In this document: piece after piece, positions 19,856 to 42,880 of the stretch
How positions within the stretch are numbered: the stretch's first letter is position 1
Layout: each line of letters opens with the position of its first letter
Assembly: GCF_037975245.1 (NCBI RefSeq)
Contig: NC_092576.1
Span: 13,153,611-13,217,610, forward strand
From: Apostichopus japonicus
Lineage: Eukaryota > Echinodermata > Holothuroidea > Aspidochirotida > Stichopodidae
Reading direction: 5' to 3'
Length of the DNA stretch: 64,000 nt
Program-made: the position numbers and the translations under genes
The notes under the pieces: model-generated
Told to the model about the DNA's origin: nothing
What the model saw: the letters and a program-made list of their open reading frames with translations, nothing else
The model's database searches: none

Positions 19856-19955
19856 ATATGAGCTTCTTGCTTACAATTTCCTTTTAAGGCACTTCTTACT
19901 TTTCAGGGCCAAGAATGCTATAATACAACTTGGCATATGTGCTTCTTTGATTTCA

Positions 19956-20480
19956 TTAATCACATTTTGAATGAACTGCCAAACAAGACTGCATAAAGGT
20001 CGATAAGCCATGTCCAAAATGCACATTTGCCATGAAACAGAAATAGACAGCTTTTATAGAAGAGATTTGTAAGGAACTGACCTCTGTTCTAAAATAGCAA
20101 ATATCTGGGTTGGTACCAAGAGGGCTCCTTGCATACAAAAGTAGCTGCAGTATTTTTGTGGCATCAATATCCTTTGAACTTTGTAGAATATCAGCCATGA
20201 ATATCTTGCTTACAATTCTTTCCTTTTAAGCCACTAATTACTTTTAAAGGCCAAGAATGATCTAAGGTCTCTTATGCAACTTGGCATATGTGCTTCTTTG
20301 ATTTCATAAATCACATTTTGAATGAACTGCCACACAAGACAGCATGAAGGTTGGTAAGCCATGTCCAAAATGTACATTGCTTTGAAACAGAAATCGATAG
20401 CTTACAGTAGTGATTCTTGGGGGACTGGCCTCCGTTCTAGAATAACAAATGTTTGGGTTGGTGCCAAGAGTAAAAGTAAG
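19956..20480 (-). CDS. Tandemly duplicated terminal exon of an uncharacterised protein
   Basis: Two roughly 330-bp direct repeats (19856-20195 and 20200-20480) each encode, on the minus strand, a matching C-terminus. The first reads LGTNPDICYFRTE...NVHFGHGLSTFMQSCLAV..HSKCD and the second LGTNPNICYSRTE...NVHFGHGLPTFMLSCVAV..HSKCD, each closed by a stop. Amino-acid conservation between the copies suggests both descend from real coding sequence. The F/V..CF..N..F...L..FMQ pattern loosely resembles the C-terminus of SAMD3-like proteins common in fish and marine invertebrates; that assignment is tentative. The exon at 21409-21650 may belong to the same gene. Confidence 0.4.
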
Positions 20481-21408
20481 TATTTAACATTTATTGACAC
20501 ATGCTTTGAAAATATCTAAGAATACAGCTCAAAAATGTTTTTTTTCAAAATATTTTTTTAATGTGGTAGGGGGAAAATTTGAGTTGCAAAAATTCAATAT
20601 TTAACATTTGTGATATCATCACTGAACAAAAGCATATTCATGGGAATAATTTATCTTGTCTCCCTGTAACAAGATGATAGACAAGTTGTTAGATTGGACA
20701 CAATTGCAAGAAATGCAGAGCAAACATTGCACATAAAACCATAGCACCGAATGGCAAAGACACCATATTAAAACAAAAACTTTGTACAAATTGTAAACCA
20801 TATTATACCGCTTGAATCTGTACCTTTTTTCTACACTCAACATCAGCAACCTTTCTTAAAATCTTAGCTATAGCCTTGAATAAAGCAAGAGTTTCATCCA
20901 AAAATAACATTTATTCCCAATCTGGTCTTTATAATGCGTACTGATCTGCCAGATGCCTAAGGTTAAATTAAAAGTCAGTCAGTTTTCTTCACTGTGTGGC
21001 TGATTACTGTCATAAACTTCCAGGCATAAATTAAAAGAGATTTAAAATGTAATGCCATCATTTAAAAAAAGCAGTGAAACTAGTTCTTTCCAATCAAACT
21101 AGATATGTAGTCAATCAAAGTACTGTTTTTAAGTTGGCCAAATAGGCTTCAAAGTGAAATATAGTATTAACTTATCAGTGAGGTTAGTGACTTAATTAAT
21201 TTCAGTGTTTCTGCTAAATCAAAACCTCGCTAGTAATTTTTCCACTTCCTTTTTCAAGAGTAAAAGAATATGGTCTTGAATAGTATCTTCGTAATATGTG
21301 TATTCAGAGTTCGCTTCTTTAGTATTTTTGATGCAAAATCACCTACGTATTTCTCTTTAATTAAGCAGCAAAAATTCGAATTTGATAGTTACCATTCCAC
21401 GGTCTAAC

Positions 21409-21650
21409 AACTTGGGATACTCTTTCAGAATATCTGAAATGTTAGTTGAGTGGTCTTTGATCTGCTGTTGTCTGTAAACTGCAGTTTGCCCCATGAAGTC
21501 CAATACTTTCTCTCTTGGTTCCATGTTACATTTCAGCCAGTCATTCATCATCACCAATTCCTCTTTGTTCTCCAGATCAGCTTCTGGCAAGGACAATAAA
21601 AACATATATTTCCTACTAAATAGAGATGCCTTAACATCAAATTTTGAAGT
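21409..21650 (-). CDS. Exon of an uncharacterised (SAMD3-like?) protein
   Basis: The minus-strand reading contains LFSRKYMFLLSLPEADLE, KEELVMMNDWLKCNMEPREK and VYRQQQIKDHSTNISDILKE followed by YPKLLDRGM. It ends at a GTAACT donor. The pattern of a YRQQQI block, an I..IL.EYP.LL block and a hydrophobic end is what I recall from uncharacterised SAM-domain proteins. No clean acceptor was found, so the 5' boundary is approximate. It may be a gene or a gene fragment, with its end at 19956-20480. Confidence 0.4.
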
Positions 21651-21749
21651 TACCAATGGTTGTGGTAGTTACAACGTGTCCTAAGCCAGTCTTTGATCAT
21701 TGTCATGGCATGAGAGATAAGTCAAATCCTGAGAATAGTCTTATAGCTC

Positions 21750-22740
21750 TTATTTGAAACCATAACAGCGGATTGCGAAGAAGATAGATAGTGGTATCAC
21801 TTTTAGAACGTACAAATATGTGAATGCTAAGGTCTTTATGTGGATTCATCTTTGTGAAATAGCATGGAGGGGGGATTTGCTTATCCTATTAAGCTTACAT
21901 GCTGTTGCACATTCTAGATTTGTAGAGATTTGTCTAAGAAAGAACACATTGTACTATTACAACAAAGAGTTGATATCAGTTTAGATAAGACTGTGTTTTA
22001 TACATGCTGGATAAATGTATGTGTGTGAACACTTTCTGAACAGTCAAATATTAATTTTTAACATCTTATATTCGTGGGTTCATTTACCTTTGAAGTTTTT
22101 CAAATTTGGTTAATGTTGTATTTAAATGTATCAGTGTATACATAACCTTGTTTTTTACAGACCTAACTTTTATTTGGAATTATTGCCTGAGGCGGGGGTG
22201 GTTGGGGTGGTTGGGGGGTTGAGTTGGTCAAGGCAGCTGGGGAAGTAGGTACATAATATATTAGCTTTTAATTTTACAAAAATATTTGAAAGCTAAGGTT
22301 TTTTATTGGGATTCATCCTCATTGAATAGGTTGCAAGGGACGAGGAGAGGATGGGGGGGGGGGGTGTTGAGTTGACTTGGTAGCCGTATTAAGACCTATT
22401 GCTTTAGCAAAAGTTTGAGATGTTTCTTGAACAAGTATCTATACATTATTTCAGAGTTCATTGCATGAGGTATGGGTTGAGCTGCTGTGGAATGAGATAC
22501 ATTCAGAGTTAGACCATTCATAACGGCCAAATATTTTGATAGTATGCCTATATAATGCTTTGATGTTTTTCCAATTGTTAACTTTGATTGGGAAGTGGGA
22601 GGGTGGGGGGTTGCGGTTCAGGTGACTTGACCATACCATTAAGGCTAATTGCTTTTGCACATGCTGGATTTATACAGCTTGATATGTCTTGGAAAGTACA
22701 AGTTGTACACTATTAACCTTTTCTCCTATTCTTTGTAAAA
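21750..22740. repeat. Degenerate tandem repeat, about three units
   Basis: Three diverged blocks repeat the order: an AAGGTTTTTTATTGGGATTCAT-like phrase, a G-rich run, a TTAAGNCTAATTGCTTTTGCA-like phrase and a CTGGATTTATACAG-like phrase. G runs at about 22190-22215, 22345-22362 and 22600 fall at matching positions. No coding signal. Confidence 0.55.
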
Positions 22741-22741
22741 T

Positions 22742-25700
22742 ATTTGATCATATATAGTGTTTGTTTTTCTTCTCTCTTACAGACAGGGACCAGTTGGCAC
22801 TGCCATATAAATGTTCAAGTTGGTTAATCCATGCTGCTTGGTTCCATATTATATTATGTTATGTTGGGACCCCTGGACGTGCAATAAACATGTTCTTGGA
22901 TTTTGTCAGTTGGGTCGCTTTCAAGCAAACAATTTTTGCGTAGTAAATGTTAGCAGCACTATAGCAGTAGATCATACTGATTGGTGCAGTTCAGCCCTTT
23001 CCACAATATATTCATTATCATGAGAATCCTCGTTTCTTGTGTTCAGTTCTTTTCTGTGACTATCATACATTTTGAAGATCATCGAGCACTCTGTGTTACA
23101 TCACCAGGCTGCAGTTAACTATACGGATTTATCTTGATATCATGTTGATAATCCTTTTGATGTGAATGCTAAAGGAAATATTATGATGCGAGAGAAAGTC
23201 ATAACTAGAACATTTACAAAACATTGGTGAACATCATGCTTTGACAATGTCACAAGAATATAAGTTTGGTAGAACCAAAATACCATATTACACCAGTGAA
23301 AATCCTTTTTTTTGTAAATAAATTGATGTACTGATGATATTTTTCTTGTAACAGTTCCATATGTATGGAATAATTTGTTGCACTGTAGATCCATAGGGTA
23401 TAGCATATTCCAAGAGGTGTTAAAAACTCAGCAGACAAACTGAGGCACTTGTATACTTTATAGAATCATAGATGAAGATGGTATGGTGGATGTTAATATT
23501 TTATCAGCATTTTAACAGAATTTCTGTTACTGATTATTAAATGCAGCTGGCTCAAAACTAATTTACAAATTACCTCAAACAAGAAACCAGAGATCAAATT
23601 TGTGTGCTTGTAACTTATGAGCATAATTTGTGATATAACTATTAAATCCACTCGTTTGCTGTATTGTAGATATATGCACGGACGCAATGAATATGTTACT
23701 GTTGCGCACAATTATATGAAAGCTGGTTTTCTTTTTATGTGCTACAATAGGTACCGTATTTTATTGGGTACAAAGGTTGTTCTTTTGGTTGTCTTGAAGG
23801 TGGACCAGCCCCCCCCCCCACCTATTTTCCCACTTTCACCTCCTGCTGAAATTATCCCCCTATTTCGAATCAACATTAGTCAAGTGATAATGTCAAACAA
23901 CAGGGGTACTTGAACAGCAAGTTGGTTTTGGGTGTACAGTTCAATGAAAAGGAGACTTAAGTTTCCTCTCAACAAATAATGTAAACGTGGCCACTTAATT
24001 AAGGCTTGATAAAAATTGTAATGACAAATCTATATCCCCCCACCCTCCTCATTAATCCTCCACATCAGAACTTACTACCAATACTATTTGGAATATAGTT
24101 ACATTGGTAACGATTGAAATTATGTGACATGTTTTTTTTTAATTTTTTATATTAACCTTTGTGCAAAATCTAAAACTTGTCCTTATAGATCAAGTAGCAC
24201 ACCGTTGTCCTACCATATCACCTGCTGCCTCCCTGTAATGGACAATAAGCACTCTTCATTAACAGTTAGAAGTAGTCAATCACATGTCATATGTGAATTA
24301 ATTTGTTTGCCTCGTCATTCCCCCTACCCCCCCCCCCCTCGCCTTGCCCAGGACATACTGACAATGGAACAGAAGTATGTTACATATGAGTATATGACTG
24401 AAATTAACATAACTTCAAATTAAGTCCCCATAAACCAATTTAATGTATGTTAAGTCAGTACAAAGTCCCCGCAAGTAATTGAATTGATTTTGAACTTATT
24501 GTCCACAATCTGAAATGCGGCTTAAGAACCCCTTTTCCAGACGGTGGGTGGGGAAAACAATTAGGGTGTGGGGGCACTTATCTTGTTAGGGCTGGCTATA
24601 AAGGTTAGGGACAACTTCTCTATTAGGAAGTTGATTTAGATCAATAGGGTACAATATTTGGAATTGATAATTTTATAAAAAATTCCAAATATATGCAAAT
24701 TATAATATGCAAATTAGGTAGTAATTTAATTTTAATTGGAAAACACCAAAATACAATTAAATCTCTACGGACTTCAAAATTGACTTCAAATTGTATGATA
24801 AAGGTTCTTCTGGGCTGCTCTTTCAGATGATACCTTATTTTCTGAAATCTGTTGAGGATTGACAGAGTTATGACTGATTTAATTTAGTACAAATGTTGTT
24901 TACTTTGTTTACTTTCTACAAATACAGCCTAACGTTGGCATAACGTTAGGCCTAGCCTAGCCATTTTTGTAAAAAACGCTATTGAACTTACAATTTCTGG
25001 GTCCTCAAAGGACCGAACCTTGATAAACTGGTTCGACCAGAAGGTCCTGGACCTCATGAAGGTATCTGACCAATCGTCCCACATCTTTAGGGCCTATTGG
25101 GCCGTAATTTGGGACGCTGTGTGCAGCCACGACCTATTTGAAAATATCCACTACGTAAAAGTCCATTGAAATGTACATTAAACATACAATGACACAGTAT
25201 TGCGCAAGAACGGCGGTTGCTATCGACTTACAAAGGAATGTGAGGGCGCTATGTCATAACTATCAATTACAAAGAAGTGAGCGGCCTAAATATCTATAAT
25301 AGGGTAAAAAAAACACGTTCGTAGGTTGAAGCGTTCGGGAACGAGAATTTTCTCAAAAATGAACGGATTTGGACGATTTTGGTGTCAAATTACAGGAAAT
25401 TTCAAGGTCATTTGCATTTTTCCCAGAGCTCTTTATAGATATATTCCTGTTCAAAACATGTTCAAAACATGTTAGTGTTTATACCAAATATAATGGGGGG
25501 GGGGGAGGGGGGTTTCTTCAACTCTTATTTTCTGTCACGATTTTTATGAAGCGAACATCGATTTTTAGCCAAATTACGTCATTTTCAGATTGACCCTTGA
25601 CCTTTGAGCCCCACCCACTAAAAAAAATTACAGTGACCCCCCTTTTTATTTGTTTTATACACAAACGTATGTTCTTAGCTACATTTCAATACCTAAATGA

Positions 25701-26185
25701 CTGTTGTAGGATGTAAGATGGCTGAGTAATAATTTTTTTTAAATTCAAAGATTATTTGGGTCGATATCGACCCAAATCGCGGAGTTTGAAGTCCTTGTGA
25801 TAATTGTAACAATGGTCCTCATTATGACAGCAGCAAGTTCGATGCCCCATAAACCACCTTACGTCCTGTAGGTGTGTGTGTATGTTTGTGTATGATCGTT
25901 TCGCGAGTTCATGAAAGTGTTAATTTTTTATTAGTTCTTCCAAATATAACAATAAAATGGTAAGAAAACGATATTATGTTGTTTTATTTTTTTTTGCTAT
26001 GCAAACAAATTATATTTCCGACTGAACATGATCACGTTTATGTAATATCACGCCACTAATTCATGATATGAACATTTCGCTGAAACTAACTGCAATAGCG
26101 CATACTGTCCAGACGTTCACATTATTGTAGGCCTACTTTCATTTAGGAAGTGGCAATATCGGGGCAGCCATCCCCTGCAACCACC
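22742..26185. other. Gene-poor stretch
   Basis: Several poly-C/poly-G runs (about 23810, 24330, 25496). The frame following an acceptor-like TCTCTTACAG at 22782 is open for some 55 codons but has no motif. One unassigned open stretch at 24925-25169 is listed separately. No exon of the downstream receptor (its signal peptide should lie 5' of 27861) was identified here. Confidence 0.4.
24925..25169 (+). other. Unassigned 80-codon open stretch
   Basis: One plus-strand frame is open without an early ATG. It reads VKNAIELTISGSSKDRTL, then NWFDQKVLDLMKVSDQSSH and IFRAYWAVIWDAVCSHDLF before a stop. The composition is protein-like (Trp, Asp and Leu rich), but the opposite strand also has open stretches. 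No family was recognised. Confidence 0.25.
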
Positions 26186-27345
26186 AAGGTTTTCACAATG
26201 TGACCTCAAATGACCGTTGATCCCTACCAACGACTACAGGGTAATTGTAATCAATGTGGAAAACATACACATCAAATATGAGTTATGTCCAAGCTACTCT
26301 TCTTGAGAAGTTGTTTTTACAAGGTTTTAACTATTTAACCTCTGGTGACTTCAAGTGACTTTTGACCTCCACAAAAAACAACAGGCTTCTTAAATATAAC
26401 GTGTAACAACTACATTATAAATATTACATTGGTCCATGATTCCTTCCTTGAGGTATCGTGTTTACAATTTTTTTCACAATTGAATCCCTGATGACCCCAA
26501 ATTACCTTCAGCCTCCCTGAAAACTATAGGCTAATTTAACGTAATATGGTAATCAAAATAGACCTAATTCAATTTCACACTATTCATATTCCGGGCACCA
26601 AAATGGACAATTATTGTCTTCTTTTTGTTTTACAAGGTTTTCACAATGTGACCTCAAATGATTGTTGATCTCTACCAACGACTGCATGGTTCGTGTACTC
26701 AATATGGAATACATACACACCAAACACAAGTTATGTCCAAGCTTCCCTTCTTGAGATATCGGGTTTACAAGTTTCTCACAATTTGACCCCTGGTGACCCT
26801 AAATCAGATTTGTTCTCCACCAAAACGAAAGTCTACTTCTATTTAATGTTGTACTCCCACACACCTAAATATGATACTGGTCAAGCTTCTCTTGTAGAGC
26901 TATCGTGTTATCAAGGTTTTCACAATTTGACCCTTAGTGACCATTGACCTCTACTAAAAACAATATGGAAATTAAATTTAACATGTCACAATAAGATATT
27001 AAATATGAGATTGACTGAAGCTTACCTTCTTGAGCTACGTGTTTACAAGGTTTTCTCAATATGATCCTTGTTGACCCCAAATGACCTTTGCCATCCCCAA
27101 GAAACAATAGGCTATACTTCTACTTAATGTGGTAATTTTACAAACGAAACATGAGATATGCCCAAGCTTCGCTTCTTGAGACATCGTTTTTACAAAGTTT
27201 TAACAATTTGACCTCGGTGACCCCAAATAACCTTTAACTACATACAAAGACAAAAGCCTTCTTCATCTTGATATGATACTTCCACACGCCAAATATTAGA
27301 TTGTTCCAAGCTCCTCTTCTTGAGATATCGTGTTGTGAACAAGGT
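26185..27345. repeat. About 145-bp tandem repeat, roughly eight units
   Basis: Each diverged unit has ACAAGGTTTTCACAATTTGA, a TGACCCCAAATGACC block, an AACAATAGGCT block and CAAGCTTCTCTTCTTGAGAT. The last unit ends beside a short (CA)n at 27346-27365. ORFs at 26693-26947 and 27234-27578 only traverse units. Confidence 0.85.
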
Positions 27346-27860
27346 ATCACACACACACACACACATGCAACCATGCACACTAAAAGAGGAACCAAAACTA
27401 TATCGTATTCTATCGTGCATTGAAACAAATGTGATTTATTCTTGAAGCTCATTAATATGCATTCTATTATAAATACGACATGACGTATTACTGTCGCTTT
27501 TGGTACTATTGTGTAATAAATAATCATACAATGACAACGATACATATTTTTGCAAAATTTTGGCCACTTCAAAGACATTATTGCTACGGAAGCGTATAAT
27601 ATTTAGAGGGAGAGAAAGAGAGGGTGGGGTGGGGGGGGGGTGAGTGGTGATGTCTGCGACTGTCATTACATTGGAGAGTACGTAAACCATAGATGGCATC
27701 GGGTTAGGGTGAGCAATTTGTTATATTTGGCACATCTAAATACCCGGATGTGGTACTCTCTGACTTAATCCCCATCCCACCGAATTGCGGACGCCCGTGT
27801 CTATAATCAAGAATTGTTATTATTTATAATTTATTATTTATAACTATTTAATTTTACCAG

Positions 27861-30800
27861 GTTTGGAATGCTATCTTTGTGAAGGGGTAAGAAATTGTTC
27901 CTTGCCATTGAATCAACTAACTACCACTGCATGTAGCGATGGCTTAGTTTGTTCGGTAGTCAACGTCACGGTAATCAGCGGATCGGGTGAGTTTGCACAT
28001 ATCCAATATTGTCTGAGTCATACTATATCATCATTTCTCAGTTAAAGGATTGGTTCAGGTGTCTAACATGTCTAACTTGTATGAAAGAGCTTAAAAAGAC
28101 AAACAGAATAGTGAAGAAACTACCATGATAGCATTCTCTGTAAAGGAGATATCACACTTTGAAGATTTCAAAATTTCTTTGCAAATGACTGGTGTAGAAA
28201 GACTAACTATGAGGGTGTGATGTCACATCCTCACTTCCTTAACATGTGTCAATATATTTCATTAAAAAATAACAACATTTTTTGTCAAAAATCTAAAAAA
28301 ATATAATCAAACATTCTTCAGATGTTAATCTCAAATACTTCCCTTGACACATATGAGAACTCCTGACGTATCTTTTGGTTGTAAGTCATAAAATCTTACA
28401 AAATATTTTAATAAAATAACAAAGACTTTTCAGGACTGTGAGAATATGACGTCACAGCTAGTCTGATTTCAGCAGTTTCTACACAATCAGATAGAACTTA
28501 CAACTTGAATATCTCCTAAACGGAAAAAGATATTTGAATAATTTCTTCACTATTGTTTTTTTTTATTGTCTTCTTTCATATAAGATAAACATTTGTGACA
28601 CCTGAACTAGTCCTTTAAGCGTGAGTTCAGGCCTACATTTCGTTTTTGAATTAATTTGTTTTGGTTCTCAACCTTTTACTTATCTCGATGTATAGCAAAC
28701 AGATTAGGGAGGTTTGAAAATACAGTGGAGGAGAACCTTTTGAAAAATGCGGATAAATATTTATTGCCCTTGACACCCGATACACACAGAGTACACAGTT
28801 ACAACTGTAAATTGTAAAGTTTTTTACCACAGTAAAAACTGGATCGTGCTATAAATCGGTAGTATATGTGTTATAAGGATTACAGTAAGAACTGAGGATA
28901 TGTGTAATTCCAACAAATCAAGTTGTTGTTTTTTTAAAATTATTATTAAGATTACACATATCCTCAGTTCTTACTATAATCCTTGTAGCACATGCTACCG
29001 ATCTATCAGATTTATCAGCACGTTCCAGTTCTTTTCTGTGGTACAAAACTTTAAGATTTACAGTAGTTACTGTAATCTCTGCGTGAATCGGCTGTCCATG
29101 AAGGAAAACATTTTACCTTTAGTTGCCTACCCACATTTGCTCATTATAAAATGTACTTCTTGGCATGCGACCATTCTCGTGTGACCAGAAGACTGTTCTA
29201 TAAAATTGACAGGTGAACTGTTATACTACCAATTGAACACTGCTTTTTAATCCATAAACAAGTGCATTTCTTGTTTGTTAACTATGTAAGTTTTAGTCAT
29301 TGAGTTTACGCTGAATATTCATACTCGTATGCATACGCCACATATGAATATACATACGCGTATGCAGACGCCACCTTTTTTTAATATAACATTATTAGTA
29401 CATGATCGTATTTGTTTTGATGCACATCGTACGTTTGTAGTACATGATCCTATATGTTTAGAACATGATCGTATACTTTAAGTACACGATCGTAGATGTT
29501 TGGTACATGATCGTAAGTTTTCAGTACATGATCGTGTATTTCTAGTACATGATCGTAAGTTTTCAGTACATGATCGTATAAAATTAGATAATCATTAACA
29601 TCATCATATGTCGTGGTCCTTTTCGCGTTCCATAGTAAAGGTTGTGTAACAGGGGAGAACTATGTCCTCCGTAAAGTTGTTACTTTCGTTTATCTACAGG
29701 CTTCACTATGCAAGATAAATACTTATTACGCGGCTGTATATTTCCTATCAAAGAAGATAACTGCCTTAATTCAACTGATGTCCTAAACCAATACGTTCCA
29801 ACATTGGTCCCTAATATCAGTCAGATTTCATTGGACTCGGAATCATTTGTTTGTTTTTGTGGCACAAATCTCTGCAATGAGCAATTAACACCGGTTAGTT
29901 TAAGTAAGTACATTTTCGATACCTTAACTAAAACAAACGATAGTTAATATAGTAGTAGTAGTAGTAGTAAGTTGAGTCTCGTCTATCCGACATGCTCAGT
30001 GATTAACCTCCGCCAGGTATCACGATCTTGTGCAAGGTTTATTGCTTCCTCGAAATTGTTAATGTTAACGTCCTTAAATTGCGACTTTATTTTCCCAAGC
30101 AAGGTAGTCACGGGCCTTCCTACTGGTTAAGCAGTATGTCTCAATGCTTCTCTTAAAGCAACCTTTGCTGGAGCGTCCTCTTGAAGTCTTGCTACATGAC
30201 TGAAAAATCTCAATCTTCTATGTGCAGCTATGGATGACCAAGTTGTTTGGTTGGTGATTGGTTGTAGAGCTCATTGTTTGATAACCAATTGTTATTGGTC
30301 CATCTAATGTTGAGAATATTACGAAGTAGTCTCCTTTGAAAAGTGCCAATATGCATACTGTTAAATGACAATGACAACAAGTTTATTTTTAGCACATACA
30401 ACATATTTACAATCAGTGGCGTAGGAAGGTACTTTTGAGTGGGGGGCTGAAGACTGATGGCCGGCCTGGGGGAGGGGTCTAAGGATTTTTTTGCATTTCC
30501 AGGTGGCCTCAGATGCAATTTGGTGCAATATAGCACACTTCAACACCCACTCCATTTTTTAAACTTAATTTTGTATTTTCACCTGGCCTTAGATGCAATT
30601 TGGTGCTCCAAATGAGATTTTTTTCTCATTTGGAAATGAAAAAGGGGTTTTCTGACTTGCGAAGCGGGGGGGGGCGGAATGATACTTCCGCCCCTCCACA
30701 TTTTTCACTGGGGGGCTGGCGCCCCCCAGCCCCCCCGGTTCCTACGCCCTTGTTTACAATATTTACAGTAAATGAACTTGTAAACAAGTTCAACAGGAAA

Positions 30801-33800
30801 AAAGAAGATGTTCCAGAAAGGGAGGAAAAAAGAAGTAGAAAACTTATAAATGTTTTCCTCCGAATGATTCAAATTTCATAATAGTTTACAACTTAAGGTA
30901 CTAAAGCAAGGTTCATGTTATATTTGTAATGAAAGAAAATCATAATCAAAATTCAATACATTGTGACTTGGAAATAGAGAAAGTAAGTTTGCTTTGTAAT
31001 TGTATTTAAATGATGAAAGGGTTTTACTGTGATTAATACTTAAATCAATGCATTCCAAATAGTAACACCAGAGTAGGAGATACACAGCTGTTTTTTTTTT
31101 GTCCTTCTAGTTCTAATTTTTGGCAAACGAAAGTTTCCACAGTGTCTTTTATTATAGCTATTTGTTGATATGGTAAACTAATTTTGAATATCAGTATTTA
31201 TGAAATCAGTATTTTGGAAATCAGTATTTATGAGCAAAAACGCACAATTGTCAAATTCTGGATCTTGAAACTGTATTCTCTTTGAAGTTAATATTGTCGA
31301 TTCAGATGGCCTCATACCACTGACAGAACTCATGGTTCTAAATATAAGCAAGAACCTACACCATATAGGACGAAACTGTTTACCTTTCAGCAAAATTGAA
31401 AGTCATTTTGATGTATCTTTCTCAATTATATATATCTTTGTTTCTTATAATTCTTGTACCATAATGCATGGTGTGAACTGTTCTCCTGAAAGAGAGACAG
31501 GTTGGTTGCGAGGGTTAAAGTTTCTGATTAACAAAGTTTATCGATCCGTTGGGTAATCGCGAATGTTCCGAGAAGTTGGGTGTATGTTTGACTTCACCCT
31601 ATACACACAGAGAACACAGTTACTACTGTAAATCTTAAAAGTTTTGTACCAAAATGAAAACTTGGTCGTGCTCTATAATTCGGTAGCATGTGTTATTAGG
31701 ATTACAGTTAGAACTGAGGATATGTGTAATTACAACAATTGTAGTTGTTGGGGTCTGTTGGGATTACAGATAGCCTCGGTTCTTACTGTAAACCTAATAG
31801 CACATGCTACCGATTTATCAGATTTGTCAGCACAATCCAGTTTTTAGTGGGGTACAAAACTTCATGATTTACAGTAGTTACTGTAATCTCTCTTTGAATC
31901 GGTTGTTGAATTCGGAAAACAAATCCTAGTCAATCTCCTTCCTATCATTAAACTCATTACTGTTACCGATATTTGCATAATTCCTGTCATAACCTGTTTT
32001 TTAAAAAAGGATCTTTGTGATTCTAAATACTTCTCAGATAAGCCCGCTGAAGATCTCGAAACGATATTATCAGGAATCGCTTATGTAAGTCCACTTTCAT
32101 GGGAACAAATCTAATTTCTGATTTGATATTCAGGTTATCTCAACAAAATATGATAGTTTATAGGTACATCGTTTCCCTCATTGCATGCACGTAAATGTTA
32201 TATATAGAGAAAAGGATACCTAATGTTTTTTTATTTTGAAAAATATTCACGTAACGTGTTAGTTATTTTACTTTAACTATCTATTTCCTTGTAGACAAAA
32301 TTCCCATCAACAATGGCTTGTAAACTTTTTCTTGAGTCAGTGACTTGCTGAACACATAGGCTATGTGTAGGCACTGCATTTGAAAAAGGATCAGGTCTCT
32401 AAAACATGCTTATGATACAGGTCTAAAGCAACTAAAATGATCAATGTTGGATACATGCATACTTAATAATAATAAGAGAGATCAATATCAATAAATATCC
32501 TTTATTTTATCGTAACAAGTATTTACTAGACCCACCAAACACCTTGTTATAACAACAACAACAACAAAACATAATTCATAGATGTCAGGGCAATACTATC
32601 TCTGCTCTCAAATTTGAGATGTACCGTAAAGAATAAAATCACTTAATAATTTGACAAAATATTGTTTATTTTTTAGGACACAGGTGGAGACAACAGAACA
32701 GACGAGGAAGTTAAAATGTCAGCAGACGCTGTGCAGGAGGCAACTAGTGATGGCGAGTTTCTGGACGAGGATTCTGACAGGGTCGAATTAACAGTTTCTG
32801 CTTTAGAATCAGTTGTGGGAAGAGGTGTCTCTTCTATCGAGGTGAGAACAAGATTAATGTCCAAACGTTATAAGTATGTGTGTTAACTTTGCAGTACGTT
32901 AATAAGAGAACTGACACTTGACATGTAAATTGTATTCAAATAATATCAATTAAATTGTTTTACATTCTTTTCATCAGGTTACCGAATCAGTGATAAGAGC
33001 AGTCAATAATTTGATTGAAGCAGACGGCGATGTTAAAGATCATGTAATGGCAGTCGGTGGTAGATTAGTTGAAGCCTTGGAGAAACAACTCAGAAATTTT
33101 CAACAGAACGAAGGCAACTTTTCTCAGATTTATGGGAACATTGGCGTGGTCTCGATAAACGTTGTCCCGAGCAATGTCGGTGGCAGCCTAACTTTTGCTC
33201 ACGTACTCGAAGATGGTAGTAGGCGAAACGTTACCGGAGGCCTTAAAGGTGGAACAAATGAGATATACGGAGATGCCAGAGCAAGTGATCACATCAATAT
33301 CAGTACCAGCGAAGGTCCTCAAGTTACTTGATGGTAATACTTACTATTATCATTCCATTCTGACTAACAAAAATGACAAGTTCCTACCTAGACATGCTTA
33401 TATTTTGTCCTAAAATTTGAAATAAATTGAAACTTTCTTATTGGTAGAGTCTTTGATTCTATTATCTCAGCTTTACAAATGTTGTTCACGAGACTGACAC
33501 TAGAGCAATACAGTATAAAATACTTCACTTACGTTTTATTTTCTAAGGAAAAAATGGATATCACATTGTATATTAAGTAATATAATGATACGTGTTTTTT
33601 TTTTCAGGGATAACCACAGCTGAAAAATGTTAGTTAATTCGTTCTAGTAACTTTCACTTCAAGTTACTATCAGAAGGTTGTTACGTGTATTACATCTCAC
33701 AAATGGTATATGAAAATGAGTAACTCTGAGTCCAGTCCTAATGTTTATAACTCATGTAATAATCGAGTAAACAGAATTCGTTTTGATAACATTTTATAAA

Positions 33801-36800
33801 TGTAGGCAGAATTCATTTTATCTTTTAAATAGGTACAGGTGTGGAAGTTCCGATAAGCTTCATTATATATGATTCCGATACTCTATTTACCCCATCGAAG
33901 CCGACCAGGCGGAAGAGGGCAACTGAGAGGATAGTCAGTCACATCATATCAACCATTCAAGATGACGATCATGATAAAGATGACGATGAAGATAATGGAG
34001 ATCCAGTAGAATATCCAATCATATCGCAATTTTTCATATTGGAGGTAATAAATAAAGAGCTTTTGTGATACTCTTACATGTTAACTCGTGTTTATTTATT
34101 TTCACTCATAATAGTTTGTAATTGTTTTAAGATAATTTTGTAATTCATAGAAGTTTTGAGACATACAGGTGCTAAGCCTGCATGCTAAACTGTAAGTCCT
34201 TTTGTAGGTATATAATAAGTACATTAACGATAAGCATTTTCTATACATTTCGCTTTTCCGAACTATTTTAATATCTAGTACTACCTTCCTTTTAATAAAA
34301 GAAACTCCAATCAGAACTAACCTTGAATGACGATTTTTTAAATTTTTTTTTACAGAATCTTAACGAATCAGAAGAAAAACTGGACAGCTCTTGTGTCGTC
34401 TGGTTATATAACGAAGACACTGATGAAGGATTTTGGTCCGATGAAAGCTGCAAAATGTTATCGGACGATTCAGATCTTACCGTGTGTTCATGTAAACACA
34501 TTGGAAGTTTTGCAGTGTTAATTGTAAGTCACAAACTTCAAAGAAATTTGTAAATAATCATAGCAAAAACGTCAGTATAATTTAGACAACGGGAATCCTA
34601 CTCTTTCTAAGACAGGGTTCTATATTCTGTTGATATTGGAAATGATGAATATTGTCTGAACTTTCGTCGTTACATCTTCGCTTCGCTGTTATTCATCATC
34701 AACACTGAATCCCTATATCATTTGTGAAGAAATTATTAATAATGATTTGACATCTTGTTACTTCCAAGAGAATCTTACCGTAGCCAATTGACATGTATCA
34801 TATAAAGGAAAAAAAACACAAAATAAAGCTCATATCAGCTTGAAAAAATTGTAGTGCTCTTTTAGCATTGTATGTATGGCGTATGCCTTACTGGAATGAA
34901 TCGTGCTATAAAATGGTTTTGCATGCATGTACTCTTAGGATTACAGTAAGAACTGAGGATATGTGTAATTCCAACAAATACCTTTTGATGCATTTGTTGG
35001 GATAACATACATCCTCAGTTCTTACTGTAATCCTAATAGCACATGCTATGCTACCGATTTATCAGATTTGTCAGCACGATCCAGTTTTTACCGCGGTACG
35101 ATTTTTTTTAAGATTTACGGTAGTTTCTGTAATCTCTTTGTGAATCGGGTGCTAATGTCTATGTAAGTGAGTGTTATTTCATTTTGAAGGCTTGGATGAG
35201 AAACTTGTCCACACCTTTGTGAATCGATTGGGCACTAGTTTCAATTGTGGTGCCTAGATATCGCTTACTATTAATACTACAGAGACTCACCATTATTGAG
35301 AGGATATCTCTAGAAATCTTATCTCATAGAAATGAATGGTAGCCCACAGCATCACAAGGGTGAATCATGTGTTGTTTAAATGTGATGGTAGAATGATCAA
35401 TCTGCTAGTAATATCAGACCTACTTCCCTCGTCTGTAATCAATAAATGTTGAGTTATATTATTATTAAGATAAACGTAACCTTCGTTCTTTTACAGAGAG
35501 TCGGTCCTCTAGAACCAGAGATTGCTCTCTACTACATAACATTCATTGGATCAATAATATCTGGGATGTGTCTGATTTTCTGCATCGTAGCCTTTCTATC
35601 TATAAAGTAAGTACCGTCATTCTTTATTTATTATATACATTCAAAATTTGATGAATCTATACAGCACAAGATAACCCACACAACCATTACAGAGATACAA
35701 ATTGATAATGAACTAAAATACTGCTTTGATTTTACAAGAAAACAAGAATATAATTCCATTAAAATGCCGATACATGAAAATATCATGATTTCAAAGTCGA
35801 GACATTTTGCTCTGAGTTTAAGTTGTTTACAGTGGTGATTCAAATGGTCACAGTTCGTCTTTCAAGAAGATCCTGCTAGGAACAAGCATCCTGTCTCCCT
35901 GACGTTTATCTAAGATAATTGACAAAGAAACATCGCCATTAAAAATTGCTAAAAGAAGAAAAAAAAGTAACTGGTTGATAATATTGTTTGCTCTTTTTTT
36001 ATTATTATTATTTCAGATCACTTAGATCGAAGCATCCGACTCAAATCCATATCAACCTTTGTTTATCTCTTTTGGGTTTCTATATTGCTTTTCTGGTTGG
36101 TCCTCTCGCTGTAGGGAAGAAACAACACTGTGCCGCGCTCTCCGCGATCATTCAATTCTTCTGTCTGGCTACGTTGGCTTGGATGTCAGCAGAAGCTTTG
36201 AATATGTATTACTTGTTTCTCAAAGCTACGAAAGGGAGCATTCGTTACTTTACACCAATTTCATGCATGGTTGTCTATGGTAAATGTCTGTGTTACTGTC
36301 ACGTATGGAACTATAACAATCGGCGATAGGTGTTTATATGTACTACACGGAAAAGAGTCGTATAGCTCTAACCCAGGGTTGTCCAACGTACGGCCCGCGG
36401 GCCACAGTCCGGCCCGCCGCAGGGTTGAGTCCGGCCCGCCAGAGATGCTATACGGTGCGAAATTTTAGTGAGCAGATTTATTGATAACAATTTGAAGCTA
36501 TATAATCAATCATTCGAACCTTGTGGGTCCAAAAAACTGCATACAGGTCAGTTTGTGTGACACTCTCTCAGCGGAGGAGGGGGGGGGGGCGGCTGAACTT
36601 TATTAATCTGTTTTATCAGGAAGGAAAATAAATCAGTGCGCTCCGCGCAGTGCTCACATTTTGTTGCCTTGGGCTTCTGGCAAAAAAAATCGAAAAATCG
36701 AGTGTAGGGTTCATGCGGCCCCCTCCTTCATCATAATCATTCCATGTGGCCCTCCTCTGCAAAAGGTTGGACAACCCTGCTCTAACCCTTACTTGAACTC

Positions 36801-38763
36801 ATAGGTTTAAAAAGTACCGATGCTAGAAGTTCGCATCCTAATTGTGTTTCGGTCAAGCATAACGTTTACCTTCCATTCAACACTGTTTAATCAGGGAGTT
36901 GTTATGGAAAACAACTCCCTGTTTGAATGCAGTTCTCACCAACTTGTCGCAGAATCAACATAAAACTGGAAGGTTTCGGGAATAATAGGCTCTCACCTTT
37001 CTGTTTGTTTTGTTCGATCTCGTTAATAGATACATCAAACGTTAGACTAAGGTTCAATTCTCCTTTTGGTACTTTCCCGGTGGGGGGGGGGGGTCATTAG
37101 TGAGAAGCTTCTTTGACACATTTGTCCCGACCATACACGAAAATCATTTTACTTAATGTAAAGGTTGATACAACATTGATGAATTTCTCGCAAAAAAAAA
37201 AAAATGAATGGAGTGAATTAGACCCAGAGTATTAGGAAAGTTGCACCCCGAAACTACATATTTTTGTCGTCAATAAGTTCTGAATCATGTTAGCTAGGAA
37301 AGCTGTATATATCTACATACATTCCGTGGTCCAGTGTGTTCATATATATTGTGCTGGCGAGTACATTTCAATTATACATATATAATCTGCTTGATTTGGA
37401 TTTTCATAAAATAACTCCATAAATCACACAGAAACAAAACTTTACGGAAATCACACTCCGCTATTTGTGTATTATTTTGGACAGGTTCATCCTTAACATG
37501 CGCTATCCTGGTAGCTTTCCTTGACCGAAGCACAGATTATGAATCGGCTAACTAGTAAGTAATATATCTTTGGCAAAGAATTAAATTCATTTGTTCATTA
37601 ATCGCATAAAAACACCTTGTTTTAATCCTTGCCAGAGCACACCTGACTGGCCTCACCTGACCGGGACGTAGGCTGATTAACTCGTTTATTAACAGTAGTA
37701 CAAATGCTTGTTTTTTGTTTCTGTTTTTGTTTATATTTTTTGTTCGTTTCAGTGTGATACTTTACAGGATTACAAGTTCGTTCATTAATAGAGCCAATTA
37801 ATTGAATCAATTAAACAGCAAAAAAGAAAAGGCAGAAATACAACACACGAAGAATAACTCGCGTTACAAAACTTGACAAACAATTCCAGTGCAATATATA
37901 TCCCTTAGAGTTAGGATGATCCACAATAGTAACGTAGTAATATGCATTTAGTCTGAAATAACTCAATAGGCAAAGCAAACTATTACTTTGAAAGTTATAT
38001 TTGCATACATCTTGCTATTACGAAACTTGCACTGATGAATGTCTTAGAGCCATTTCCCACTCACATAATCAGAAACATTAATTGCATGTATGTAATGTTG
38101 AGTAAACGTAGTGCAGTATCTACCTCCGTTACATCATACAATAAAATAAAAATTGTGAATATATAATTACAAATGTCAAATTAATACAACGCATGACGCT
38201 TTGCATAATGTTTGTTTTATGTATTTAATACGAAAAATAGCACAAATTTTTATATTCTTTGTTTCCAAAGCTGTTTCATCCATCCTGGGTACGCCCTCTA
38301 TTTCGGATTCCTAGCAGAGGTCTGTGCGATGTTTTTATTCAATTTGATCATATTCGTGATGGTCATCCGGAAAGTCCTCTGTCGTCCAGTGATGGTCAGT
38401 AAAGCCAAGGAACATGCTAAGAGGAATGAAATCATCATAAGAATTCGACATGGTGTTCTCTTCTGGTTCGTTCTCGGCCTCTCGTGGATTTTTGGATTTC
38501 TTGCAGCTGTCGACCAATCAACTCTCATCTTTGACTATCTGTATTGCATATTCATTGCCTTGCAAGGTTTTCTGATGTTTTTGCTACTTTGTGTAGCAAA
38601 TCCTGACTTCAGAAAACGGTTTTCTGTGCAGAAAAGAAGCGAGAGCAGTCGAAGCCTTGGCACATCTAAACTTAGAAGTCCATCGACTGAAAAATCGACA
38701 TCGGAACCCAACCAGAGTGAGATCTCTGGAAATAAGAATATTATCAAAACATCTACTTGTTAA
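27861..38763 (+). CDS. Adhesion G-protein-coupled receptor with LU ectodomain, 11 exons (5' end missing)
   Basis: Exons: 27861-27986, 29700-29903, 32038-32084, 32677-32841, 32978-33314, 33833-34044, 34356-34523, 35497-35606, 36017-36279, 37485-37554, 38271-38763. All junctions agree in phase, giving about 730 residues plus a missing signal-peptide exon that should end in phase 1. Order: an LU (Ly6/uPAR) domain, residues 1-110; a GAIN domain, about 124-410, ending in a GPS; seven membrane helices, about 420-690; a Ser-rich tail. Family 7TM_2 features are the paired cysteines KKQHC (before helix 3) and NYCF (loop 2) and the helix-6 segment FVLGLSWIFGFLA. Such receptors sit in the plasma membrane and signal through G proteins via a tethered peptide. 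The donor of exon 5 (GTCCTC) is weak; phase supports it, but an RNA check is needed. Introns hold several MITEs. Confidence 0.93.
28046..28614. mobile_element. TTAA-flanked foldback MITE
   Basis: Ends AGGATTGGTTCAGGTG and its near-complement CACCTGAACTAGTCCT are flanked by TTAA (28042-28045 and 28615-28618). The inverted repeats continue inward for well over 100 bp, including a pair around TGTGATGTCAC and TGACGTCACA. TTAA flanks suggest piggyBac-type mobilisation. It lies in receptor intron 1. Confidence 0.8.
28774..29091. mobile_element. Palindromic MITE 'CACCCGAT', copy 1
   Basis: Left end CACCCGATACACACAGAG; the right end is the complement of CCGATTCACGCAGAG. The arms (ACTGTAAA..AAAGTTTT..GGATCGTGCT and their complements) lead to a central hairpin around ACTGAGGATATGTGTAAT. 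It lies in receptor intron 1. Confidence 0.85.
29397..29583. repeat. GTACATGATCGTA minisatellite
   Basis: About eight units of 22-24 bp built on (A)GTACATGATCGTA, itself partly palindromic (ATGATCGT), in receptor intron 1. Confidence 0.9.
29950..30390 (-). mobile_element. LINE C-terminus (antisense to the receptor)
   Basis: The minus strand encodes AAHRRLRFFSHVARLQEDA, then a GRPVTTLLGKIKSQFKD block and INLAQDRDTWRRLITEHVG before a stop. This is the R.RW.GH..R and AQDR..WR pattern at the end of many LINE ORF2 proteins. A (TAG)n tract at 29951-29969 forms the 3' tail. One internal stop marks it as dead. It is in receptor intron 2. Confidence 0.7.
30414..30752. mobile_element. hAT MITE 'GGCGTAGGAA', copy 2
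   Basis: Reverse orientation to copy 1: ends CAGTGGCGTAGGAAGG and CCTACGCCCTTG, with the exact 8-bp duplication TTTACAAT (30406-30413 and 30753-30760). It lies in receptor intron 2. The small ORFs at 30228-30536 and 30600-30881 are inside or across it and are not genes. Confidence 0.95.
31595..31902. mobile_element. Palindromic MITE 'CACCCGAT', copy 2
   Basis: Same arms and central hairpin as copy 1, starting CACCCTATACACACAGAG and ending TTTGAATCGG. It lies in receptor intron 2. Confidence 0.82.
33833..34044 (+). other. Receptor exon 6: basic cluster and Asp-rich loop in the GAIN domain
   Basis: After the strand VEVPISFIIYDSDTLF this exon carries TRRKRA, a match to the furin-type R-X-[KR]-R rule, and then IIST followed by an acidic run (QDDDHDKDDDEDNGD). 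Both lie between core GAIN strands, where most family members have a short loop. Proteolysis and metal binding are inferences from composition only. Confidence 0.6.
34386..34523 (+). other. GPS motif of the receptor, cleavage residue replaced
   Basis: The order SSCVVWL..GFWSDESC..CSCKHIGSFAVLI keeps the four cysteines, both tryptophans and the histidine of the GPCR proteolysis site. The family consensus at the cut is H-L-[ST]. Here it is H-I-G, with glycine where the Ser/Thr nucleophile should be, so self-cleavage is not expected. The hydrophobic tethered-agonist core (FAVLI) is kept. Confidence 0.85.
34897..35151. mobile_element. Palindromic MITE 'CACCCGAT', copy 3 (5'-truncated)
   Basis: Keeps the central hairpin and the right arm, ending TTTGTGAATCGGGTG. 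The left arm is lost before ATCGTGCTATAAA. It lies in receptor intron 7. Confidence 0.8.
36374..36779. mobile_element. hAT MITE 'CAGGGTTGTCCAAC', copy 1
   Basis: A 406-bp element with ends CAGGGTTGTCCAAC and GTTGGACAACCCTG, and the exact 8-bp duplication CTCTAACC (36366-36373 and 36780-36787). Its subterminal GGCCCGCGGGCC is a perfect palindrome. It lies in receptor intron 9 and is about 90 percent like the copy at 48354-48768 by eye. Confidence 0.96.
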
Positions 38764-39164
38764 AACACAGCAAACAAAAAAATCTATGAATTATCAGCCT
38801 AAGTGCTGATTTCAACTTCTAACTAGACAATTATATAGTTTAGATTATTAAGAAAAAATGAAACAACGACACTTTTCATGTGAACTTCAGATGATGACTT
38901 TATCCATTTAGCTCTTTCCAGATTTTTTACAATAGACCACAAATTTGGAAAAATTCATATCTTTGCGATACAAAATGCTCTGATAATTCAAACATTTTGC
39001 AGCAGTTTTGCTAAGCGATCAATGTTAGTCAGCAAAAGTTATATTTGAGCCGAATCAGATATAACCACACATGCATGTAATTAGCTGCTTCTAGAATGAT
39101 ACTTGGACTGATGGAATTGCTAATTGTTACCTAACATTGTCACAAGGTATCTATAGGACGAACC

Positions 39165-39170
39165 AATAAA
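39165..39170 (+). promoter_or_regulatory. Possible polyadenylation signal of the receptor gene
   Basis: AATAAA about 400 nt after the receptor stop codon and upstream of the satellite array. It is a plausible 3' end, but other AATAAA hexamers lie in the satellite. Confidence 0.4.
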
Positions 39171-39290
39171 GCCCAATTATACAAAGTATCACGGGGAAAA
39201 GAACATTTGGCAATGTAAATTTTAAGAGATTTACTCTGTTCCTCCAAGTGAATCACGAATGTTATGATACGCTTAAACTAATACTTATTA

Positions 39291-41980
39291 ATACAATATA
39301 TTTGTTTCCATTTTAGAGGAATTGATTCCATTTTTATTATGTTTTTATTAGACGAAAGGTGTTTCAAAATGTTTGACAATACAAATTAAAGTGGCATTGT
39401 ATGTCATTTTTGTCATTGAAATATACAAATCATGTACGAAATTTCGTCTAATAAATAGTCCATTTTTACAACAATTGGACGGATTATGAGATTATTATTG
39501 ACTGGCAGGTTATCGAAAGGGCGCCAAAGATCCCACCCATGATTTTGGAATGAAATAAAAAGTCACGATTTTGGCCAAAATTGAGAAAATCATAAGGGTA
39601 TAGCCTTACAAAATGATCAAATTTGGCCTAAAAATGACACTTCTCAAATTTCATTTGGAACGCATTTTTCGGATTCACGTGGCTTATAAGCTCCTTTTCT
39701 TGTAGATTAAAGTGGCATTTTATGGCATTTTACGCCCTAAAAATATTCAAATCATGTTCGAAATTTCGTTAAATAAGTAAAACATTTTTGCAACATTGGG
39801 ACGGATTATGAGATTATAATTGACTGGCAGGTAATCAGAAGTGCGCCAACGATCCCAAGCATGATTTTGGAATGAAATAAAAAAGTCACGATTTTGGCCA
39901 AAATTGAGAAAAATCATCAGGGTATATATCTTACAAAATGATCAACCTTGCCTAAAAATGACACTTCCTAATTTTCACTTGGACGCATTTTTCGGATTCA
40001 CGTAGCTTATAAGCTGATTTTCTTGTAGATTAAAGTGCCATTTTATGGCATTTTACGCCCTCTTAATATTCTAATCATGTTCGAAATTTCGTCATAATAA
40101 ATAGTGCATTTTTGCAACATTGGGACGGAATTATGAGATTATTATTGACTGGCAGCTAATCAGAAGTGCGCCAACGATCCCACGCATGATTTTGGAATAA
40201 AATAAAAAAGTCACGATTTTGGCCCAAATTGAGAAAATTCATAAGGGTATAGCCTTACAAAATGATCAAATTTGGCCTAAAATGACACTGCTCAAATTTC
40301 AGTTGGAACGCATTTTTCGGATTCACGTAGCTTATAAGCTGATTTTCTTGTAGATTAAAGTGGCATTTTATGGCATTTTACGCCCTTAAAATATTCAAAT
40401 CATGTTTGAAATTTCGTCATAATAAATAGTGCATTTTTGCAACAATGGGACGGATTATGAGATTATTATTGACTGGCAGCTAATCAGAAGTGCGCCAACG
40501 ATCCCGCGCATGATTTTGGAATGAAATAAAAAAGTCACGATTTTGGCCAAAATTGAGAAAATTCATAAGGGTATATATCTTACAAACAAATCAAGTTTGG
40601 CCCAATATGACACTGCTCAAATTTCAGTTGGGAAGCATATTTCGGATTCATGTGGCTTATAAGCTGATTTTCTAGAAGATTAAAGTGGCATTTTATGGCA
40701 TTTTACGCCCTTAAAATATTCAAATCATGTTTGAAATTTCTTCATTATAAATAGTGCATTTTTGCAACAATGGGACGGATAATGGGATTATAATCGACTG
40801 GCAGGTAATCAGAAAGGCACCAACGATCCCGCGCATGATTTTGGAATGAAATAGAAAAGTCACGATTTTGGCCGAAATTGAGAAAAATCATAATGGTATA
40901 ACCTTACAAAATGATCAACCTTGCCTAAAAATGACACTTCCTAATTTTCACTTGGACGCATTTTTCGGATTCACGTAGCTTATAAGCTGATTTTCTTGTA
41001 GATTAAAGTGGCATTTTATGGCATTTTACGCCCTTAAAATATTCAAATCATGTTTGAAATTTCGTCATAATAAATAGTGCATTTTAGCAACAATGGGACG
41101 GATTATGAGATTATTATTGACTGGCAGCTAATCAGAAGTTCGCCAACGATCCCATGTATGATTTTGGAATGAAATAAAAAAGTCACCATTTTAGCCAAAA
41201 TTGAGAAAAATTATCAGGGTATAGCCTTACAAAATGATCAAATTTCTCCCCAAAATGACACTTCTCAAATTTCACTTGGGACGCATATTTCGGATTCCCG
41301 TAGCTTATAAGCTGCTTTTCTTGAAGATTAAAGTGGCATTGTATGGCATTTTTTGCCCTTAAAATATTCAAATCATGTTAGAAATTTCGTCATAATAAAT
41401 AGTGCATTTTTGCAACAATGGGACGGATTATGGGATTATTATTGACTGGCAGCTAATCAGAAAGGCGCCAACGATCCCATGAATGATTTGGGAATGAAAT
41501 AATAAATTCACGATTTTGGCCAAAATTGAGAAAAATCATAGGGTATAGCCTTACAAAATGATCAAATTTGGCCTAAAAATGACAATTTTCAAATTTCACT
41601 TGGGACGCATATTTCGGATTCCCGTAGCTTATAAGCTGCTTTTCTTGAAGATTAAAGTGGCATTGTACGGCCTTTTTCGCCCTAAAATATTCAAATCATG
41701 TTAGAAATTTCGTCATAATAAATAGTGCATTTTTGCAACAATGGGACGGATTATGGGATTATTATTGACTGGCAGGTAATCAGAAGGGTGCCAACGATCC
41801 CACGTATGATTTGGGAATGAAATAAAAAGTCACGATGTTGGCCAAAATATTAAAGTTACATTGTATGGCATTTTACGCCCTCTTTATACAATATTTTTGT
41901 TTCCATTTTAGCGGAATCGATTCCATTTTTATTATGTTATATATTATATATTAGACGAAAGGTGTTTCAAAATGTTTGAC
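39291..41980. repeat. 323-bp satellite array between 90-bp direct repeats
   Basis: Seven full units of 321-325 bp begin at 39385, 39706, 40029, 40354, 40679, 41002 and 41327. An eighth (41651) is internally deleted, and a short ninth ends at about 41882. Each unit starts ATTAAAGTGGCATT and contains GGGACGGATTATGAGATTAT, GACTGGCAG and CACGATTTTGGCCAAAATTG. The array is bracketed by direct repeats (39291-39379 and 41886-41980) sharing TTTGTTTCCATTTTAG, GATTCCATTTTTATTATG and GACGAAAGGTGTTTCAAAAT. No coding signal. It lies 0.6 kb downstream of the receptor gene. Confidence 0.95.
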
Positions 41981-42154: not shown

Positions 42155-42880
42155 ATGGATATAGTGTGTTCTTAAGTGATCTAACTTGGATATAAAATCA
42201 ATGATCATTCTTTGCCTATAGACAAAACAATTTCATGAATATATTTGGTACGTTTGAAACAACTGCGATATGTTGGTCCATGATGATGTACCATAGAACT
42301 GTGCATGAACAAGATGGGACAAATTGTTGATTAGCGTGTTAATTAACACCCGATACACACGGAGAACACAGTTACTACTGTAAAATGTTAAAGTTTTGTA
42401 CCACAGTAAAATCTGGATCGTGCCATAAATCGGTAGCATGTGCAACTACGTTTACAGTAAGGACTGAGGATATGTGTAATTCCAACAAATCAAGTTGTTA
42501 GGATTTTTTGGGATTACACGTATCCTCAGTTCTTACTGTAAACCTAATAGCACATGCTACCGATTTATCAGATTTGTCAGCACGATCCAGTATTTACTGT
42601 GGTACAAAACTTTAAGATTTACAGTAGTTACTGTAATCTCTGTGTTAATCGGCTGTAAATAAATAAGTGCTTTCTTTGATGTTTATAGGTTAGTGTGTTC
42701 TTAATTGATCTAACTTGGATATAAAATCAATCATTCTTTGCCTAGAAGAAACAATTTCATGAACATATTTGGTACGTTTGAAACAACTGCGATATGTTGG
42801 TCCATGCTGATGTAATATAGAACGTTACATGTATACAAGTTGACACAAATTGTTGATTAGCGTGTGAAATAAATAAATGC
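42155..42880. repeat. 195-bp direct duplication split by a MITE
   Basis: The block GATCTAACTTGGATATAAAA ... ATATGTTGGTCCATG ... GTTGATTAGCGTGT occurs at 42155-42340 and again at 42686-42865. The first copy is followed by the MITE at 42347-42652; in the second the flanks continue without it. Confidence 0.85.
42347..42652. mobile_element. Palindromic MITE 'CACCCGAT', copy 4
   Basis: Intact: left end CACCCGATACACACGGAG, right end TGTGTTAATCGG, arms and central hairpin as in copy 1. The neighbouring duplicate at about 42865 provides an empty site. Confidence 0.9.

Follow-up and report, generated by a model that had tools for sequence, protein, structure and literature searches.

The window analysed here is a stretch of 64,000 nucleotides from Apostichopus japonicus (C16:13153611-13217610 of the 671.6-Mb assembly that was searched). 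It raises the question of whether a cysteine-rich domain of the LU (Ly6/uPAR) type is joined to an adhesion GPCR, and whether the gene in the window can still give such a receptor. A sequence-only reading had placed LU, GAIN, GPS and 7TM exons between 27861 and 38763. These exons were located as claimed, as eleven exon-like blocks on the + strand, all with AG/GT borders. They are hereafter called copy A and are listed with their phases.

27861..27986, + strand: LU exon 1 (LU1), cysteines C1-C5; phase 1-1, from acceptor, donor and frame
29700..29903, + strand: LU exon 2 (LU2), cysteines C6-C10, ending CxC-4-CN; phase 1-1
32038..32084, + strand: small exon G0, 47 nt; phase 1-0, from borders and phase
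32677..32841, + strand: GAIN exon G1; phase 0-0; present in copies A-F
32978..33333, + strand: GAIN exon G2; starts in phase 0, frame broken near 33277
33833..34044, + strand: GAIN exon G3; phase 1-0; contains RRKR and an acidic stretch
34356..34523, + strand: GPS exon; phase 0-0; ends C-S-C-K-H-I-G-S-F-A-V-L-I; Pfam GPS match
35497..35606, + strand: TM1 exon; phase 0-2
36017..36279, + strand: TM2 to TM4 exon; phase 2-1; also a 7tm_2 match in the genome search
37485..37554, + strand: TM4/ECL2 exon (TM4b); phase 1-2
38271..38763, + strand: TM5-TM7 and cytoplasmic tail exon; the stop ends at 38763

Owing to the frame break in G2, the phases from G3 onward are those of the frames matching Pfam and ADGRL3. 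Passing from phase 1 to phase 0 ahead of G1 needs either the 47-nt exon G0 or an internal acceptor at about 32684, found by eye. G0 probably supplies the first GAIN helix; the 15 residues read from its complete codons are identical in copies A and B, the only copies where it was found (no match in copies C-F at E 0.05). Past the stop, an AATAAA was seen by eye at 39165-39170. A palindromic MITE-like element occurs three times, in three introns of copy A (28866-29110, 31595-31921 and 34925-35148), with a further match near 42343-42658.

The GPS motif and the 7TM core of copy A both exceeded their Pfam cut-offs (GPS, E 2.9e-11, 44.1 bits against 22.5; 7tm_2, E 1.6e-30, 106.6 bits against 20.6). 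ADGRL3 (latrophilin 3) was the best PDB match of the GPS-7TM part, and the end of the GAIN domain, the GPS and the 7TM core align with it over query residues 34-453 (E 7.5e-43). The ectodomain of ADGRL3 is unrelated to that of the LU family described below. The GAIN profile PF16489 matched copy A below cut-off (E 0.0018 with one junction, 0.0023 with another), over profile positions 137-206 only and with both G2 frames read with X between them. When the frame-break stretch was skipped, PF16489 gave no match to copy A. Copy B, with an intact G2, also gave no PF16489 match at E 1, so that profile support for GAIN is weak and the assignment depends on the location ahead of the GPS and on the alignment with ADGRL3. 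Comparison of GAIN subdomain A with the PDB returned seven rows (best E 0.28), which were regarded as chance.

Typical GPS cleavage occurs at His-Leu/Ile-Ser/Thr, according to the available text of PMC13197933. At this point the sequence is HIG in copies A, B, C, E and F, RIG in copy D and HLT in ADGRL3; the Gly of copy A aligns with the Thr of the ADGRL3 motif. The lack of H-L/I-S/T is compatible with adhesion-GPCR membership, since some accepted adhesion GPCRs are uncleaved (PMC13197933, same text).

The nature of the cysteine-rich domain was assessed by its profile matches, its cysteine pattern and its gene structure. In copy A, both LU-type Pfam profiles matched over nearly their whole length and below cut-off (QVR, E 0.0014, 20.0 bits against 27.3; UPAR_LY6, E 0.49, 11.3 bits against 24.8). 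QVR was also the best Pfam match in 9/9 other LU domains tested, seven from the family on chromosome C16 and two from arrays on C2, all under threshold (16.3-26.3 bits against 27.3). The sequence-only reading had proposed this profile comparison and had named a missing LU match as evidence against itself; 7tm_2 and GPS came out over their cut-offs, while the LU profiles gave matches that all stay below theirs. All ten cysteines, and the C-N at the end, are shared by 10/10 domains (eight of the family, two of the C2 arrays), and the same set in LU order is present in six human LU domains. Moreover, the LU phases run 1-1-1 and the intron of copy A falls between C5 and C6, taken as loop 2, in line with the two exons, phase-1 introns and inner junction at the tip of loop 2 that PMC6600238, in its available part, gives for LU genes. 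Loose patterns for the first and second LU halves, composed after inspection of the sequence, each have a single match in the window, on one strand; among 300 dinucleotide shuffles the first was present in 17, the second in 9, and both in none.

On the other side, the domain might be another ten-cysteine module without the three-finger LU fold. Besides the sub-threshold Pfam matches, this would fit the comparison with six human LU domains, which was not significant: hhalign gave P 0.037 over 11 columns, and an ad hoc six-sequence HMM gave -2.5 bits, a score equalled or exceeded by 262/500 full shuffles and 226/500 shuffles with fixed cysteines. The MAFFT alignment of this human set put CD59 out of place. 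Neither the single sequence nor a profile of the domain found a match in the PDB, and the QVR profile, run exon by exon on the whole genome, gave one match (E 0.68, on C2) and none at the window. However, real LU proteins match each other poorly: LYPD6 barely finds LYNX1 (E 0.029, single sequence). Given this, and the invariant cysteines and C-N in LU order, QVR as best match in all nine other domains, and the two phase-1 exons divided between C5 and C6 in the manner of LU genes (PMC6600238, available part), we regard a non-LU module as very unlikely. Pattern and gene structure indicate with high confidence that the domain is an LU domain.

A second doubt is whether the two LU exons belong to the receptor at all. 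A protein search of the genome with the LU domain returned 44 rows, 36 of them with E 0.26 or less, located on C16 (12) and C2 (24); the remaining eight had E 3.4 or more. Besides copy A, five loci on C16 place one or two LU before GAIN-GPS-7TM exons.

C16:13127863-13140882, + strand: copy B, one LU, GAIN-GPS-7TM
C16:4254160-4229952, - strand: copy C, two LU, GAIN-GPS-7TM
C16:4277591-4258212, - strand: copy D, two LU, GAIN-GPS-7TM
C16:8514652-8532845, + strand: copy E, one LU found, GAIN-GPS-7TM
C16:8536105-8547836, + strand: copy F, one LU found, GAIN-GPS-7TM

The proposed union of LU and GAIN-7TM in one type of gene is thus borne out, with the order LU-GAIN-GPS-7TM repeated at five other loci. 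A Ly6-type gene of its own, made up of the two LU exons and adjoining an adhesion GPCR, would agree with the fact that LU domains mostly occur in single-LU proteins (PMC6600238, in the part available). We consider it extremely improbable, because five loci repeat the order, a simple scan of 29904-32676, between LU2 and G1, gave no signal-peptide exon, and a single weak tail-exon candidate, at 31391, follows LU2. In addition, LU2 ends in a donor, whereas GPI-anchored LU proteins carry their anchor signal in that exon (same part of PMC6600238), and the annotation of starfish proteins, as far as the available texts go, joins LU and GPCR.

Most exons have the same borders across the paralogues; the acceptors assigned to the a-type LU2 exons are provisional. 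Comparison of the copies revealed a signal-peptide exon in B, C, E and F, which codes for 23 residues including a split Gly and ends in phase 1. For copy D, no match to this exon was found at E 0.5 in about 8 kb upstream of LU1. Over G1, GPS and 7TM, copy A is 95% identical to copy B, 82-84% to C, E and F, and 53% to D. Ratios of dN/dS were computed with copy A trimmed in G2 ahead of the frame break and with copy D excluded, both here and from the G2 gap count, at about 53% identity to the others. They were 0.32-0.47 for GAIN-7TM (7 pairs), 0.30-0.46 for LU1 (5 pairs; A-B undefined) and, for LU2, 0.35-0.80 in 4 pairs and 0.19 for A-B. These values suggest constraint on the family overall, least clearly for the LU2 exon. 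A further locus at C16:13058222-13064067, copy G, holds a diverged adhesion GPCR whose GPS reads HAT; it gave no LU match and stands outside the family counts. The furin-like site RRKR at 33907-33918, in G3 ahead of the acidic run, is present in copies A and B and absent from C-F; to judge from this motif, it could give copy B a cut other than that at the GPS.

The LU had been proposed as the only N-terminal module. This agrees with copies A, B, E and F, as far as found, but copies C and D have two LU. Upstream of 27861, a Pfam search at E 0.1 for extra modules, on 7 of the 31 plus-strand frames of at least 60 aa between 8000 and 27860, gave no match.

The claim that the window copy gives a receptor is not supported: its signal-peptide exon is missing and its GAIN frame is broken. 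At E 0.5, nothing within the window matches the signal-peptide exon of B, C, E and F. Copy B is a 95%-identical gene lying 51 kb upstream of copy A, and the two share one segment.

27355..41850, + strand: segment common to copy B (C16:13129970-13142299), in blastn blocks of 91-96% identity

This segment measures 12-14 kb and extends past the 3' end of copy A. Its left edge is at a CA repeat inside intron 1 of copy B, and low-stringency blastn of B 13127000-13130700 against window positions 15001-28100 found only the block from 27355. The right edge is blurred near 41.8 kb by a 325-bp satellite. This satellite (window 39385-41848, just downstream of copy A) comprises 7.6 copies of the period, and related sequence is present in B. 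Copy A is thus without a signal-peptide exon because the copied block begins inside intron 1, and copy B would be the source of the segment.

The other lesion is in G2, which has 356 nt in copy A and 370 nt in B, C, E and F. A single run of 14 nt is absent from copy A alone and kept in 4/4 aligned copies (B, C, E, F). One frame of G2 is open up to 33328, with a stop at 33329-33331, and another is open from 33192 on. Only the second yields the strand VITSISVPAKVLKLLDG, of which the portion from TSISV on aligns with ADGRL3, and this frame splices in phase to G3. The exons had been described as phase-consistent; this description fits the LU exons, in phase 1-1, but not G2, which cannot be read in one frame. 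All remaining exons of copy A are open. Changes assigned to the two branches are few, 7 silent and 12 replacing in A against 7 and 11 in B, and at these small counts no extra relaxation is visible on the A branch. Either the damage arose lately, therefore, or such a test may lack the power to reveal decay.

Could copy A nevertheless work? The 14-nt gap might be an allele or an assembly error, or it might be bypassed, with a new first exon supplying the signal peptide. The open exons agree with this, as do donor scores of 5.6-9.9, an A-B dN/dS of 0.38 and the lack of A-specific relaxation. A weak in-frame donor inside G2, at 33249 (by eye), could bypass the break, at a cost of about 30 residues that include a conserved strand, and a weak candidate signal exon lies at 19544-19634. 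Nevertheless, the simple scan that gave such candidates found 10 weak ones upstream and 15 on the opposite strand, and an upstream signal exon was dropped on this basis. Two independent lesions and the fall of the shared-block edge in intron 1 also count against a working copy A, which we judge unlikely. Alternatively, the exons of copy A could be spliced as an alternative set to the first exon of copy B, about 53 kb upstream, which is on the same strand and ends in the matching phase 1. This is highly improbable: copy B has its own downstream exons, and the GAIN frame of copy A would remain broken. Altogether, copy A appears to be a pseudogene of recent origin; at best it could act as a gene only with a different first exon and with splicing that avoids the break. 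We find it probable that copy A is a broken duplicate within an LU-GAIN-GPS-7TM family whose intact members are non-cleaving LU receptors. The mapped exons of copy B are open and its signal-peptide exon is present. As it stands, copy A is unsuitable for modelling or expressing a receptor, and copy B or F is preferable.

The members whose mapped exons are free of lesions (B, C, E and F) would be surface receptors that use one or two three-finger modules to bind a partner, either soluble or on a cell surface. Below the LU, the GAIN domain would not be expected to self-cleave in this clade, because Gly rather than Ser or Thr follows the scissile bond. Binding to the LU, or pulling on it, would then uncover the tethered stretch GSFAVLI or shift its position, after which the 7TM core would signal to G proteins. 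With no self-cleavage, the N-terminal part would stay unshed, and signalling would proceed without its loss (non-dissociation mode). Such a cleavage-less mode has support in uncleaved receptors, according to PMC13197933 as available, where the tethered-agonist consensus is given as TxFxxLM. The stretch GSFAVLI deviates from it at the first and last residues. The Gly may also weaken the tethered agonist, since the +1 Thr is important for agonism in fly Cirl (PMC13197933, available text). With this Gly shared across the family, a naturally occurring clade would be at hand in which tethered agonism without cleavage could be tested directly.

The LU exons themselves differ among copies. Copies C and D carry two domains, LU-a and LU-b; E and F carry LU-a only, as far as found. 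The LU1 of copy A is 63% identical to LU1-a of copy C and 49% to LU1-b, while its LU2 is 57% identical to LU2-b and 21% to LU2-a. By these identities, the LU of copies A and B is taken to be a hybrid, with LU1-a joined to LU2-b at the tip of loop 2. In the introns of A and B, LU2-a-like remnants of 10-27 residues were detected (E 0.003-0.066), among them the following.

29640..29669, + strand: possible remnant of a lost LU2-a exon, 10 residues; tblastn with copy C LU2-a, 80%, E 0.019, a short match

Tentatively, these remnants may represent the lost LU2-a exon. Numbers and halves of LU appear to have been reshuffled, most simply via the phase-1 introns, and the direction of change would be from two LU to one. 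Loop 2 of QVR/SSS is required for target binding, according to the available text of PMC4735452. As the exon junction lies at the tip of this loop, the hybrid would alter a binding loop. A broader proposal, that the family exchanges its LU heads through recombination of exons at the loop tip and combines this with a cleavage-less, non-shedding GAIN domain throughout the clade, is possible and rather doubtful at present.

The combination of LU and adhesion GPCR had been thought unfamiliar, but this part of the sequence-only reading has to be given up: the architecture is already known from starfish proteins with an LU at the N-terminus of a GPCR-like sequence (PMC9410279, 2022, and PMC11595613, 2024, in their available text). 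Among these, LyAr2 (XP_033635706) and XP_033635539.1 of Asterias rubens and LyAp2 of Acanthaster planci have one N-terminal LU and are GPCR-like, and LyAr2 and LyAp2 carry NCBI annotation as adhesion GPCRs (same texts). Their likeness to the C16 family is one of layout as described there. Their LU is likened there to LYPD6/Lynx2, whereas for the C16 family QVR is the best profile. The text of both papers, where available, makes no mention of the GPS residue, exon phases, two-LU copies or a hybrid LU. The present analysis adds the phases, the two-LU and hybrid forms, the Gly at the GPS and the broken duplicate.

Among other known systems, Quiver/sleepless-type LU proteins (PF17064) give the best Pfam match, at nearly full length, with the family scores under cut-off. 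These are single-LU, membrane-tethered proteins, and Quiver has a terminal C-N. A C-x-C before the last C-N is common to them and to the LU of the C16 family. Amphioxus adhesion GPCRs likewise have cysteine-rich modules (Kringle, Somatomedin B, SRCR) shuffled before GPS-7TM, in the account of PMC2246102 at hand, where the words Ly6 and uPAR are absent. Neither word appears in the available text of a 2026 review (PMC13197933). In a literature search that took in few subscription papers, partly as incomplete texts, no further report of LU with adhesion GPCRs was recognised. LU has been called a 'proto-module', combined with other domains in few proteins only (PMC6600238, available part). The six-locus family on one chromosome presents it as a phase-1 module before a GPCR, in one-LU, two-LU and hybrid forms.

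Further LU exon pairs and 7TM relatives lie on C2. At C2:4900750-4952347 there is a tandem array of LU exon pairs, with 6 LU1 and 5 LU2 patterns in one 10-kb part. It is followed on the same strand by a further LU-like pair (E 0.03 and 0.009), then by a stretch resembling Fz (E 0.0028, below the Pfam cut-off) and by a HYR domain (E 2.8e-14); perhaps this is one large multi-LU gene. On the - strand at C2:10616523-10580612, two LU pairs are followed by HYR domains (E 3e-20 and 1.8e-24) and by GAIN-GPS (CSCDRLGSFAILI)-7TM exons. In this close relative of the C16 family the GPS reads RLG; the LU pairs, at 10.61 Mb, lie about 25 kb upstream of the GAIN exons, at 10.58 Mb, on the same strand and may belong to the same gene. 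This layout with HYR hints that larger receptors of many modules might include LU as well. A long HYR array (C2:11760320-11802649) lies upstream, on the same strand, of another 7TM relative (C2:11811798-11813429), which is 63% identical to the window gene in TM5-7.

Elsewhere in the window, a 299-aa open frame on the - strand (4326-5222) has a weak Pfam Beta-prop_EML_2 match under cut-off (E 1.5e-5). Five COX1-like pieces were found at C29:14745-31219, beside the mitochondrial contig C35, and may be extra or nuclear mitochondrial copies. The COX1 of the mitochondrial contig itself gave 923 bits with the best PDB chain when translated with code 9, the code of echinoderms and flatworms, against 882 with code 5.
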